DNA from: Pseudomonas sivasensis
Lineage (GTDB): Bacteria > Pseudomonadota > Gammaproteobacteria > Pseudomonadales > Pseudomonadaceae
Reading direction: 5' to 3'
NCBI RefSeq assembly: GCF_013778505.1
Contig: NZ_JAAOWU010000002.1
Coordinates: 1 to 64,000 of the forward strand
DNA: 64,000 nt
Both the position numbers and the translations under genes were made by a program. The notes under the pieces are model-generated. The model was not told where the DNA came from, searched no databases, and saw only the letters and a list, made by a program, of their open reading frames with translations. This document shows, one piece after another, positions 55,906 through 58,406 of the stretch. The stretch's first letter is position 1; every line of letters begins with the position of its first letter.

Positions 55906-55982
55906 GGGCCTATAGCTCAGTTGGTCAGAGCAGAGGACTCATAATCCTTTGGTCCACGGTTCAAGTCCGTGTGGGCCCACCA
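55906..55982 (+). tRNA. tRNA with CAU anticodon (Ile2 or elongator Met)
   Basis: A 77-nt cloverleaf with acceptor GGGCCTA paired to TGGGCCC, D arm AGCTCAGTTGGTCAGAGC, anticodon loop CTCATAA (anticodon CAT), T arm with GGTTCAAGTCC, and encoded CCA. C4:G69 and C5:G68 pairs are present; these are reported determinants for TilS, which makes lysidine and turns CAU into an Ile AUA reader, so Ile2 is slightly favoured over elongator Met. It is the insertion site of the mini-island to its right. Confidence 0.92.
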
Positions 55983-56010
55983 ACTCCAAAGCCGCGCATT
56001 GCGCGGCTTT
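55937..56010 (+). repeat. Left direct repeat (attL-type), 74 bp
   Basis: This block runs from the first base of the tRNA anticodon loop region through the tRNA terminator and is repeated without mismatch at 58333-58406. The left copy stays in the complete tRNA gene. Confidence 0.95.
55988..56010 (+). terminator. tRNA terminator
   Basis: AAAGCCGCGC (55988-55997), loop ATT, GCGCGGCTTT (56001-56010). It lies wholly inside the duplicated 74-bp block, so the inserted tRNA gene keeps its terminator. Confidence 0.85.
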
Positions 56011-56055
56011 CGCGTTTCTGGCTGGTCCACCACAGATACAGTCCTATGGTCCAAG

Positions 56056-56072
56056 GGTACAATTTAGGTACA
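56056..56072 (+). promoter_or_regulatory. Arm-type site candidate (left): GGTACA-N5-GGTACA
   Basis: Two direct copies of GGTACA at 56056-56061 and 56067-56072, 11 bases apart, one helical turn. They lie just inside the left repeat and before the integrase remnant, where integrase arm sites occur. A matching pair is at 58195-58211. Confidence 0.6.
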
Positions 56073-56107
56073 GTGCTGGTTCGCCAGCCGCCTAGGAGCA
56101 CCCTCTC

Positions 56108-56358
56108 ATGGCTACTCTCGTCAAAACTCCTTCCGGCACCTGAAGGCGCTCATTCGTAAAAATGGCTGGCCCACAGTCTCCAAAACCTTCCGCACAAAGC
56201 GTGATGCGGAGGACTGGTCGAGGCGTACCGAAGAAGAAATGGTGCGTGGCGTGTACATCCGACGTAGCGGCTCGGAGAAAATGACGCTAGAGGCTGCACT
56301 CAAGCGCTATCTGAGCGACATAACCCCCACCAAGAAACCCACCATTTGTTATCGCTGA
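56108..56358 (+). pseudogene. Tyrosine recombinase (site-specific integrase) remnant
   Basis: The 5' part of an integrase gene. It starts MATLVKTPSGT, then the TGG codon expected next has lost a G to give a TGA stop at 56141-56143; shifting by one base restores KALIRKNGWPTVSKTF, then RTKRDAEDWSRRTEEEMV and MTLEAALKRYLSDI up to a stop at 56356. These are N-terminal and core-binding segments of phage-type integrases of Pseudomonas tRNA islands. The C-terminal catalytic domain with the R-H-R-Y residues, expected in a protein of 330-400 aa, is missing. The position next to the tRNA is the normal one for int. Confidence 0.88.
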
Positions 56359-56386
56359 TGCAGAATTAACCCAGATGCCGACTTAA

Positions 56387-56638
56387 AGCCGCTCCATCAG
56401 TGATCCGCTCAAAGTCAGACCTGCTAATACTTACAACGCCAAGGCTTGGGTCAGCCAAATTTCGGTAGCCGGGTCAATTGGGCATCAGCGACAACAGAGT
56501 TTGGTTCAAGGTCTGGGCTTAGACCTATCGGAAGTCACCGACGTCTACAAGCATCACGCGAAATACTTCTGGGCTTCTGCACGTGGTGAGCGCACCGAGG
56601 GGCACCCCGATTATCACCCGCCGCCTTCAGGCTCGTGA
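56387..56638 (+). pseudogene. Decayed open stretch of unknown origin
   Basis: An 83-codon open stretch without a good start, preceded by a stop at 56384, with coding-like text such as NTYNAKAWVSQ, LDLSEVTDVYKHHAKYFW and ASARGERTEGHPDYHPPP before a stop at 56636. I do not recognise it. It may be the 3' end of a gene truncated together with the integrase. The following 56639-56931 has only weak overlapping frames and no gene I can support. Confidence 0.4.
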
Positions 56639-56931
56639 GAGAGGTGCGGCGGGATTCCGCGATTGCAGTTTGATTGCACGCCCTTAACCCTCAGCGCAAT
56701 GCAGAAGTTGTCGACGGAGCTTTACACGGTCACAACATACCCCGGCCAGTGCCTCGTGCGGAGGCGCCTCGGCCTAACGTCTCCAAAACCGACGCGCTCG
56801 ATGTGTTGTTACCGGGGAGTTGGCTTGCTGGCGATGAGACCCGTGCAGACGTCAAATTCCCCGGGGCCTCACATCACAGACCGTTTGCATCTTAGTCACC
56901 GCTTGTAGAAAATCATCGTCTTTTTGCACGA

Positions 56932-57444
56932 ATGGATACGCGCATGAAGTTCGAGAAGACCACGCAGTACAGGTCCGAGGAAGGGATCGTCTTCAATCTG
57001 TCTCAAATCACCCTCATGGAAAGCGACCGAGGTCGCCTGCGCGAGCTGCACTTTGGCGAAGCGAAACGCGCCCATTACCAAGTCAACAGCATCGTCGTCG
57101 ATATGTACGACCGAATGCAGGCTCGAAACCTGCCATGCCTGCTGACAGTCTGCATTTCCAATCCCCTGATCCGGCAGCAGGCCGACGCTATCACTACTAT
57201 GCGCGGCAACGTCGCCAAGGGAATTGCTGCGGCCTCAGGTGGCGTTGCCGGGAAGGTAGGTGCGTTGGGCGGGCCGCTCATTGGTTGGGCTTCAGGTGCA
57301 GTCGTGACGACAGGTGTCAACTGGTACCTCAAAGGGGCCCTACCGAACCTTCATGCAGGTGACGTGCTGGTCAGCATCGAGGGAGAGGTACATGGCGGGA
57401 TTGGCCCACAGCGCTCTGTCGTGACGCTGGTCATCAAGGTCTGA
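56932..57444 (+). CDS. Hypothetical glycine-rich protein (island cargo 1)
   Basis: Unknown function, 170 aa, intact. The N-terminal half (1-88) is mixed charged with IVFNLSQITLM and VNSIVVDMYDRMQ; the centre (about 92-133) is a Gly/Ala-rich hydrophobic stretch (GIAAASGGVAGKVGALGG then LIGWASGAVV) with GxxxG-like spacing resembling a membrane hairpin; the C-terminus has DVLVSIEGEVHGGIGPQRS. No signal peptide or known catalytic motif is seen. ATG 56944 is an alternative start; neither has a clear ribosome site. The next gene starts 10 bases after its stop, so the two form a unit. The glycine-zipper character could fit membrane insertion, but this is a guess. Confidence 0.7.
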   Translation: MDTRMKFEKTTQYRSEEGIVFNLSQITLMESDRGRLRELHFGEAKRAHYQVNSIVVDMYDRMQARNLPCLLTVCISNPLIRQQADAITTMRGNVAKGIAAASGGVAGKVGALGGPLIGWASGAVVTTGVNWYLKGALPNLHAGDVLVSIEGEVHGGIGPQRSVVTLVIKV

Positions 57445-57454
57445 GGAACTGCAC

Positions 57455-57697
57455 ATGCCCTACATCATGCAAACTGTCTTCCTTCTGGTGCTGGGCGCGA
57501 TCCTCGTTCAGTTTCTGAAACCATACCCGCTGCGCAAGTGGCTGGGTTTGGCGCTGCTGGCAACGGGCTTGGTCAGCATCTTCAAGGTTGGTGAGCAGCA
57601 GGTGCTGGGCTTTGACCTGGAGCTGCTAGCACTGCTGGCCGTGCCGCTGGGCGTGGTGCTTTTCCTGACGCGGCGGCGGTTCACGGGGGGGGACTGA
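57455..57697 (+). CDS. Hypothetical small membrane protein (island cargo 2)
   Basis: Unknown function, 80 aa, mostly hydrophobic with three probable membrane segments (about 5-22, 31-49, 54-71) and a basic C-terminus LTRRRFTGGD. A good GAGGA site overlaps the stop of the preceding gene, giving tight coupling. The last codons contain a run of eight G's (57685-57692), which could shift the C-terminus by slippage. Pairing of a Gly-rich protein with a small membrane protein could be a toxin-immunity, transport or stress unit; nothing in the sequence decides. Confidence 0.7.
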   Translation: MPYIMQTVFLLVLGAILVQFLKPYPLRKWLGLALLATGLVSIFKVGEQQVLGFDLELLALLAVPLGVVLFLTRRRFTGGD

Positions 57698-57754
57698 AGC
57701 CCTGGCACGATTTCTCGGTGCCGTCTCTGACCCAAAATCATATGGGACAACAGT

Positions 57755-57775
57755 CGATCAACAGCGCGTTGATCG
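57755..57775 (+). repeat. Perfect hairpin downstream of the island cargo
   Basis: CGATCAAC (57755-57762), loop AGCGC, GTTGATCG (57768-57775), 57 bases after the cargo pair. It could be a terminator-like or protein-binding dyad; no T run follows. Confidence 0.5.
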
Positions 57776-58194
57776 ATAATCTTAGCGTTGGACCTTGCAA
57801 GCGGATTGGGGGGTTACTTTGAACATACTGGTAACTCCTAACGTAGGTTAGATGCCGCCAAAATCACTGATAAATGATGGGTGGCGGCTGTAACGCAGAC
57901 CAGGTGCAGTCGGAAATGTGTAATGCCACATTGACCAGCCTCGCCAACTCTGCGGGCGCGGCCTAATTCTGATCCTAGAAAGCACGGATCTAGCGCACAT
58001 GAAAGGTCACCGCAATCGCCAACCTTTTAAAGTCAGACTATACGCATGCCTTAGGCCAAGTCGCGCTTTGCTTCTCGATCTGTGAATGGAACGTGGTTTT
58101 GAGATGCAAGAGAATTAGCCCGGGGGCACTACAGAAGATCGTGGGCGAAGAATTCACTGCGGGGCAAATTGCGAAACTCAAAGGGCGCAAAATC
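57776..58194. other. Gene-free right arm of the island
   Basis: No gene can be supported. A 38-codon in-frame stretch (GALQKIVGEEFTAGQIAKL and on to a stop near 58224) looks protein-like and may be a fragment of a lost gene, but it has no start and I cannot place it in a family. Confidence 0.5.
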
Positions 58195-58211
58195 AGTACA
58201 ACCACGGTACA
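58195..58211 (+). promoter_or_regulatory. Arm-type site candidate (right): AGTACA-N5-GGTACA
   Basis: AGTACA (58195-58200) and GGTACA (58206-58211) have the same orientation and 11-base spacing as the pair at 56056-56072 at the other end of the island. Confidence 0.55.
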
Positions 58212-58332
58212 GTACTCAGCTTGAGCAACCTTTTCAAAATTACGCTTAACACCACGTACTACGGGGCCTCCAGCTATGCCAACTTACGTTCACCTACGAA
58301 CGATTTCTCTAGGCATATCACCTCGTCCAGCA

Positions 58333-58406
58333 ACTCATAATCCTTTGGTCCACGGTTCAAGTCCGTGTGGGCCCACCAACTCCAAAGCCGCGCATTGCGC
58401 GGCTTT
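58333..58406 (+). repeat. Right direct repeat (attR-type), 74 bp
   Basis: Exact copy of 55937-56010: the 3' part of the tRNA from the anticodon region to CCA (58376-58378) plus its terminator. It lacks the 5' half, so it is a tRNA fragment, not a gene. It marks the right junction of the island. Confidence 0.95.

Follow-up and report, generated by a model that had tools for sequence, protein, structure and literature searches.

Collapsed islands in tRNA genes are already known, and a very similar one occurs in Pseudomonas fluorescens Pf-5: as given in the accessible part of the report, Prophage 05 of this strain is a 2.6-kb remnant at tRNA-Cys with 84-bp direct repeats and a truncated integrase (PMC2647930). 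The available portions of other reports describe cis-mobilizable elements (CIMEs), which are flanked by attachment (att) sites and have no integrase (PMC7563491, PMC3146451) and which range from 1.2 to 13 kb (PMC7563491), and the transfer-messenger RNA (tmRNA) islands I23, I44 and I55, which P. fluorescens SBW25 and its relatives have gained (PMC12595487). The tRNA fragments arising from such insertions are, in the available text of a further paper, a known annotation trap (PMC9897764). Here we describe a 2.4-kb mini-island in a CAU tRNA gene of Pseudomonas sivasensis, located in positions 1 to 64,000 of contig NZ_JAAOWU010000002.1 (assembly GCF_013778505.1); this 64-kb stretch, taken at its full length, is referred to as the window. 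The locus is in all likelihood a decayed, CIME-like genomic island that keeps a two-gene module under purifying selection while its surroundings erode. The island itself is of a known kind and the novelty lies in the gene pair, which is undescribed as far as the literature was searched: no description was found in open-licence papers on tRNA islands, cis-mobilizable elements and exclusion genes, a search of limited coverage that took in titles and the openings of abstracts.

The insertion site comprises the following features.

55906-55982, + strand: tRNA gene with anticodon CAU (ARAGORN), its 3' half probably delivered by the island
55937-56010, + strand: attL, the first copy of a 74-bp repeat (3' part of the tRNA with its terminator)
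58333-58406, + strand: attR, the second copy of the 74-bp repeat
56011-58332, strand not assigned: interior of the mini-island, missing from the empty sites in loci L166 and L167

The tRNA, labelled Met by ARAGORN, is the sole tRNA of the window and the only match in an RNA-family scan. It is perhaps the AUA-reading Ile2 tRNA, its acceptor pairs C4-G69 and C5-G68 being determinants of lysidine synthetase. A first-pass annotation made from the sequence had claimed that perfect 74-bp direct repeats bound the 2.4 kb, with the intact CAU tRNA on the left, and both claims were borne out. The repeats are identical at 74/74 positions (96% across 84 nt), with a start-to-start distance of 2396, and the 6.39-Mb assembly contains no further full copy; the remaining two of the four matches there were a 45-nt match at 80% and a palindrome of the terminator. 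The annotation had also proposed looking for an empty tRNA site in relatives. Such a site, as expected for a tRNA-integrated island, was found in two Pseudomonas relatives: when the window flanks were joined in silico, they aligned through the tRNA over 571 columns in L167 and over 328 columns in L166, at 82% in each. Past 58406 the sequence continues as it does in L167, where the site is empty; the native 3' half of the tRNA is therefore the right copy. The left tRNA would then consist of the native 5' half and a 3' half brought by the island, the usual layout for tyrosine recombinases at tRNA genes. The repeats, the broken integrase and the empty sites together uphold the claim of integration by a tyrosine recombinase. 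Presence of the segment in all relatives, which the annotation had named as speaking against a recent insertion, was not found: among 398 genomes of the genus Pseudomonas, 7 carried the complete unit at 96% or more (the window's own included), one carried it nearly complete at 84% and one carried the right part only at 98%, the other matches being more diverged or short.

The two genes of the module and their leader are located as follows.

56875-56931, + strand: leader of the pair, conserved at 95-98% in the 11 other copies; homology in locus L026 starts about here
56932-57444, + strand: open reading frame ORF170 (170 aa), cargo gene 1, with a glycine-rich, mildly hydrophobic middle (about residues 92-136) and many invariant polar residues
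57455-57697, + strand: ORF80 (80 aa), cargo gene 2, with three predicted membrane helices and a KPYPLRKWLG motif

These two genes are the single intact pair that the annotation had noticed. Their DNA was 96-99% identical in 11 other genomes, namely H3(2019), FW300-N2E3, MWU13-2100, P. brenneri, P. frederiksbergensis DM22, P. lini, LD120, P. proteolytica, G376, G311 and G073, and the module lay downstream of an intact CAU tRNA in nine of these, with a second element in between in MWU13-2100. Further copies were found at 84% downstream of the same tRNA (L034) and at 88% protein identity in L070, a 12.5-kb locus within which no CAU tRNA was detected. The module ORFs were 96-99% identical, whereas the flanking genes of the copies were 80-89% identical. 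Similarly, the mean synonymous divergence (dS) of ORF170 was 0.056 (66 pairs), compared with 0.76 (minimum, 0.13; 45 pairs from 10 genomes) for the flanking oxidase gene. The noncoding DNA next to the module was 92-100% identical, some of the stretches being short; selection on codons is therefore not the cause of the low divergence of the module. A tree of the module (11 rows) was star-like with no well-supported fork, the best value (85/92) joining the window and LD120, and a tree of the flanks was deep with three well-supported forks. These comparisons indicate that recent horizontal transfer has brought the module into many Pseudomonas species, in most cases at the CAU tRNA.

The same two-gene cargo thus stands downstream of the CAU tRNA in many species with deletions that differ from copy to copy, a result that goes beyond the first-pass annotation and agrees with its suggestion of decay around retained genes. 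In the 11 other copies, homology to the window ended on the left between 56497 and 56874 and on the right anywhere from 57729 to attR; the segment 56875-57697 was always spared, and the ORFs (56932-57697) were whole in 11/11. The ratio of nonsynonymous to synonymous divergence (dN/dS) was 0.195 for each ORF, the ORF80 value coming from only 55 of the 66 pairs, and both ORFs look to be under purifying selection.

The interior of the mini-island retains the two ends of a larger element.

56109-56344, + strand: tyrosine integrase remnant (start region only, frame-shifted); homology to other islands stops at 56344
58188-58332, strand not assigned: attR arm, 80-94% in 14 of the 398 genomes

The integrase remnant had likewise been proposed by the annotation. 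The open stretch at 56143-56355 is related to the starts of full-length integrase genes elsewhere, two of which were scanned and are both Phage_integrase (those of G277 and G306); the 71-aa open stretch by itself gave no Pfam match, and the frame in the window is shifted about 10 codons past the start. The left end of the island, 334 bp long (56011-56344) and including the integrase start, matched genome G325 at 96%, G277 at 93%, G203 at 92% and G282 at 85%, with lower values elsewhere. The last 145 bp, which form the attR arm, directly preceded the second tRNA copy in all nine fetched genomes that bear the arm, where the repeat-to-repeat spans were 13.8 kb (G277), 12.8 kb (G203), 13.5 kb (G226), 5.7 kb (G275), 5.5 kb (G306), 10.7 kb (G374), 21.7 kb (G282), 11.9 kb (G418) and 2.1 kb (G371). 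The mini-island therefore belongs, in collapsed form, to a family of larger islands found at this tRNA, a kinship that the annotation had not recognized. When 14 loci (13 fetched islands or tRNA sites and L103) were surveyed with the 357-aa integrase of G277, a stop-free integrase over at least 349 residues was present in seven (G277, G226, G306, G374, G282, G325 and G018); the gene was truncated in G203 and in pieces or cut in G275, G418 and G006, the match in G015 was weak, and the loci of G003 and G371 gave no match to this query. Integrase decay is thus common at this site and is not peculiar to the window. In the cargo of the related islands, of which six ORFs were scanned by Pfam and the rest judged by eye, type I methylase and specificity subunits (G203), Vsr with a cytosine methylase (G275) and an N6/N4 methylase (G306) were identified. 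The tRNA is a hot spot: in at least 25 of 119 Pseudomonas genomes (that of the window included) the 3' part of the tRNA recurs downstream, on the same strand of the same contig, at a distance of about 0.3 to 79 kb.

Other arrangements were seen at this tRNA. A different mini-island, about 2.1 kb long, occupies the site in G371 (L172); it shares the attR arm and contains two other ORFs, by eye one regulator-like and one tautomerase-like. Two loci are in tandem, L161 (G418) having an island, an att site and a second integrase start, and L028/L103 (MWU13-2100) an integrase element, an att site and then the two-gene module. In L164 (G005) two tRNA 3' copies are only about 0.3 kb apart, a nearly empty remnant.

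The course of events at the decayed island is as follows. An island with a tyrosine integrase beside attL and the characteristic arm beside attR integrated into the CAU tRNA, duplicating the 3' half of the tRNA. The integrase has been reduced to a fragment and little else survives between the repeats, and the module genes have stayed whole as their surroundings eroded, cut from both sides at differing places. Because the att sites remain, the module may move with the fuller islands of the family, be mobilised in trans by their integrases, or spread by accretion.

A genome scan for the wider family of the pair gave 47 loci. By nucleotide similarity of the flanks, 46 of them fell into 22 clusters, the tRNA cluster being one; this is not an exact count of sites, as strongly diverged places would be split and L026 was grouped in the tRNA cluster despite its other location. 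Gene layouts were compared in 79 loci (46 named loci and 33 others, with some places represented twice; 46 of the 79 were found via ORF170). With B for ORF170, S for ORF80 and a small letter for a partial gene, the simple pair occurred in 64, ORF80 alone in five (three distinct places), BSBSSSS in two and SBS in two (one place); BBSS, BSS, BSs, bBS, bS and b, the last cut by the contig end, occurred once each. The two BSBSSSS loci, L049 (6001-8447) and L050 (6001-8440), are tandem arrays of two ORF170-type and five ORF80-type genes in a row. Clear direct repeats near the module were found only at the tRNA copies and at L041, most other examined loci having none or ones that were distant, short or very large; in L061 (5140-7986) and L054 (5149-9041), pairs are inside large direct duplications (783 bp at 91% and 205 bp at 95%, respectively). 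Outside Pseudomonas the family was not found: among 143 genomes from 143 genera of the class the only positive was this genome, and 21 genomes of other genera were all negative. The same genome has a second ORF170 relative, diverged and shorter, at G000:C8:129313-129660 (profile E 3e-20, positions 6-118).

ORF170 relatives at 37-38% were also found in eight Pseudomonas phage records. In the three phages opened, Epa33, Lodos and Atpa001, a gene of about 81 codons follows the ORF170 relative, and in Epa33 it is an ORF80 relative (29%, E 7e-12, one comparison). The location of these homologues at the right end of the three phages, where Atpa001 has its integrase gene about 2 kb away, would suit a prophage remnant, in which 2.4 kb are left from a temperate phage in the tRNA and the pair represents lysogenic-conversion genes; the 2.6-kb remnant described in the available text on Pf-5 has the same shape (PMC2647930). 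On the other hand, the island DNA (56011-58332) matched nothing in phage records, a viral-contig scan gave no close ORF170 relative, and none of 11 island ORFs, among them eight besides the pair, had a PHROG match at E 0.01, hence no phage structural or lysis family. Moreover, the ORFs listed for the same-ended islands were by eye restriction, methylase, replication and other genes with no capsid or tail gene noticed, six cargo ORFs having been scanned. A prophage origin is improbable. As immediate sources, a phage was rejected on the unmatched island DNA, and a plasmid was rejected since neither the unit DNA nor the ORF170 protein had a match in plasmid records. For a phage satellite (phage-inducible chromosomal islands and similar), no regulator, replication or packaging family was found among the 11 ORFs; the island may still be a satellite that has already lost such genes.

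The sequences of the two proteins gave few clues to their function. ORF170 matched nothing in Pfam, NCBIfam and PADLOC, its best PHROGs hit had an E of 0.4, and there were no matches among PDB sequences. Its fold search gave best E values of 0.17 (PDB) and 0.11 (viral models), which are meaningless at the confidence of its structural model. ORF80 had sub-threshold matches only (DUF202, a holin family, CoaP_CTERM and others) and none in PHROGs or PADLOC; weak holin-family matches appeared in 3 of 24 ORF80 relatives. A model of ORF80 had three helices, with a predicted local distance difference test score (pLDDT) of 74.7 and a predicted template modelling score (pTM) of 0.54. Neither ORF matched a known anti-phage system in PADLOC-DB 2023, newer systems being outside its scope.

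The leading guess for the role of the pair, a tentative one placed ahead of toxin-immunity, is phage exclusion, in which the pair would help its carrier against phage as a two-gene exclusion or abortive system. This guess was made because of the layout (a soluble-looking protein with a small multi-helix membrane partner), the right-end location in temperate phages and the tRNA site that hosts restriction and methylase islands. A toxin-immunity or toxin-antitoxin pair, with ORF170 as a membrane-active toxin and ORF80 as a membrane immunity protein that persist by addiction or competition, seems rather unlikely. In its favor are the glycine-rich middle of ORF170, the tandem arrays (two BSBSSSS, one BBSS and one BSS) and the occurrence of ORF80 without ORF170 at three distinct places, whereas among the 79 loci ORF170 lacks ORF80 only once, at the end of a contig that cuts it. 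However, family scans gave no toxin or export domain, conserved polar residues lie outside the glycine-rich part of ORF170, the hydropathy of ORF170 is weak in the whole family, with best 19-residue means of 0.85-1.55, and the orphan pattern comes from few places in a set of which more than half was found through ORF170. A stronger proposal, that the pair is a new two-part exclusion module restricted to Pseudomonas and its phages, carried on a bare att-flanked mini-island that larger islands mobilise in trans through their integrases and that becomes established repeatedly at the same tRNA, is quite a long shot.

Several observations weigh against the decayed island and the role proposed for its cargo. 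No genome was found in which an island with an intact integrase carries the module, and the parent is deduced from the ends. All 11 other copies were found by queries containing ORF170, and the tally is therefore biased to whole copies and under-counts ORF170 loss; compared with the seven complete units in the 398-genome DNA search, G060 has kept ORF80 at the CAU tRNA and lost ORF170. In G073 there is a 54-bp tRNA remnant with the same right flank and no intact tRNA within 38 kb upstream. The ORF170 model is of low confidence (pLDDT, 60.4; pTM, 0.56), its poorly modelled glycine-rich middle being surrounded by strands and helices; the guess of phage exclusion has no match to a family, fold or structure behind it, and the orphan ORF80 genes and ORF80 arrays suit toxin-immunity equally. 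Finally, the module of H3(2019) (L026) lies away from any tRNA, between genes that by eye are ABC-type binding-protein-like and LysR-like. In 12/12 fetched relatives the flanks of L026 are about 30-45 bp apart and the module is absent. Its right edge is 10 nt of the tRNA core and its left edge is the module leader; judged by eye against five of the relatives, the target has lost about 7 bp, so the insertion may not have been a clean one by an integrase. Off-target integration followed by deletion is possible.

The L026 copy, with its piece of tRNA core at the right edge, also bears on a further explanation, that the module is a non-autonomous mobile unit entering att sites and not a leftover of decay. 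Consistent with such a unit, the module of L027 (FW300-N2E3) lies between repeats 97% alike and 1780 bp apart with no integrase fragment detectable by DNA similarity, and the family has many different flanks, as seen in its clusters. In L041 (5671-6907) the 3' end of a protein gene is repeated over 81 bp (93%), with the copies 1156 bp apart, and a distant pair (55% protein identity) lies between them; this looks like a second mini-island lacking an integrase, located elsewhere. Against a mobile unit, the window still has an integrase remnant on the left, the junctions of L026 with their lost target bases are not a clean crossover, and no terminus is constant, as the edges vary from copy to copy. 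We consider this explanation unlikely and favor the decayed island.

Two further features were found between the integrase remnant and the module.

56347-56497, strand not assigned: miniature inverted-repeat transposable element (MITE)-like element or collapsed insertion sequence of about 150 bp, with 35-nt imperfect terminal inverted repeats (80%)
56497-56663, + strand: fragment of obscure origin, 79-86% in other genomes, holding a 45-codon open frame

The 150-bp MITE-like element starts where the integrase homology ends (56344) and is listed twice per genome in several other Pseudomonas (G213, G356, G388 and others). Downstream of the module, 57801-57898 (about 98 bp) gave single short matches in G091, G006, G108, G126 and G388 and is possibly a dispersed repeat. 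Hairpins lie near 57800-57900, which raised the idea of an integron cassette. A scan for σ70-type promoters gave no site, and terminator-like sites were no more frequent than expected by chance.

The locus amounts to a natural repeat experiment, in which one gene pair has recently reached one and the same tRNA in many species and has outlasted most of the DNA that accompanied it; the uncharacterised pair is therefore worth testing, and the small, well-bounded loci with their empty-site controls suit such tests. Among known systems, RexAB of phage lambda is alike in layout only: a first gene whose product has no clear membrane helices, a second gene for a small multi-helix membrane protein, and a temperate phage as carrier. 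By description only, in the available text, the islands I23, I44 and I55 resemble the mini-island in their tyrosine integrase at one end, direct repeats, absence of genes for autonomous transfer, defence cargo and frequency in Pseudomonas; unlike the mini-island, they are located at tmRNA and possess an integrase, shown to be functional for I55 (PMC12595487). Like the CIMEs in the accessible portions of their reports (PMC7563491, PMC3146451), the mini-island has kept its att sites and cargo and lost its recombination genes, its size is within 1.2-13 kb, and tandem site layouts occur (L028 and L161). Those elements derive from conjugative or mobilizable elements; a like origin of the mini-island would be conjectural, and no transfer gene was found among ORF170 and ORF80, the other small ORFs being outside that scan. 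Prophage 05 of Pf-5 differs in its tRNA and in its cargo, a putative tail gene, and retention of cargo across species is not reported in the accessible part of its description (PMC2647930); the two elements share the genus, a similar size, direct repeats overlapping a tRNA and a broken integrase.

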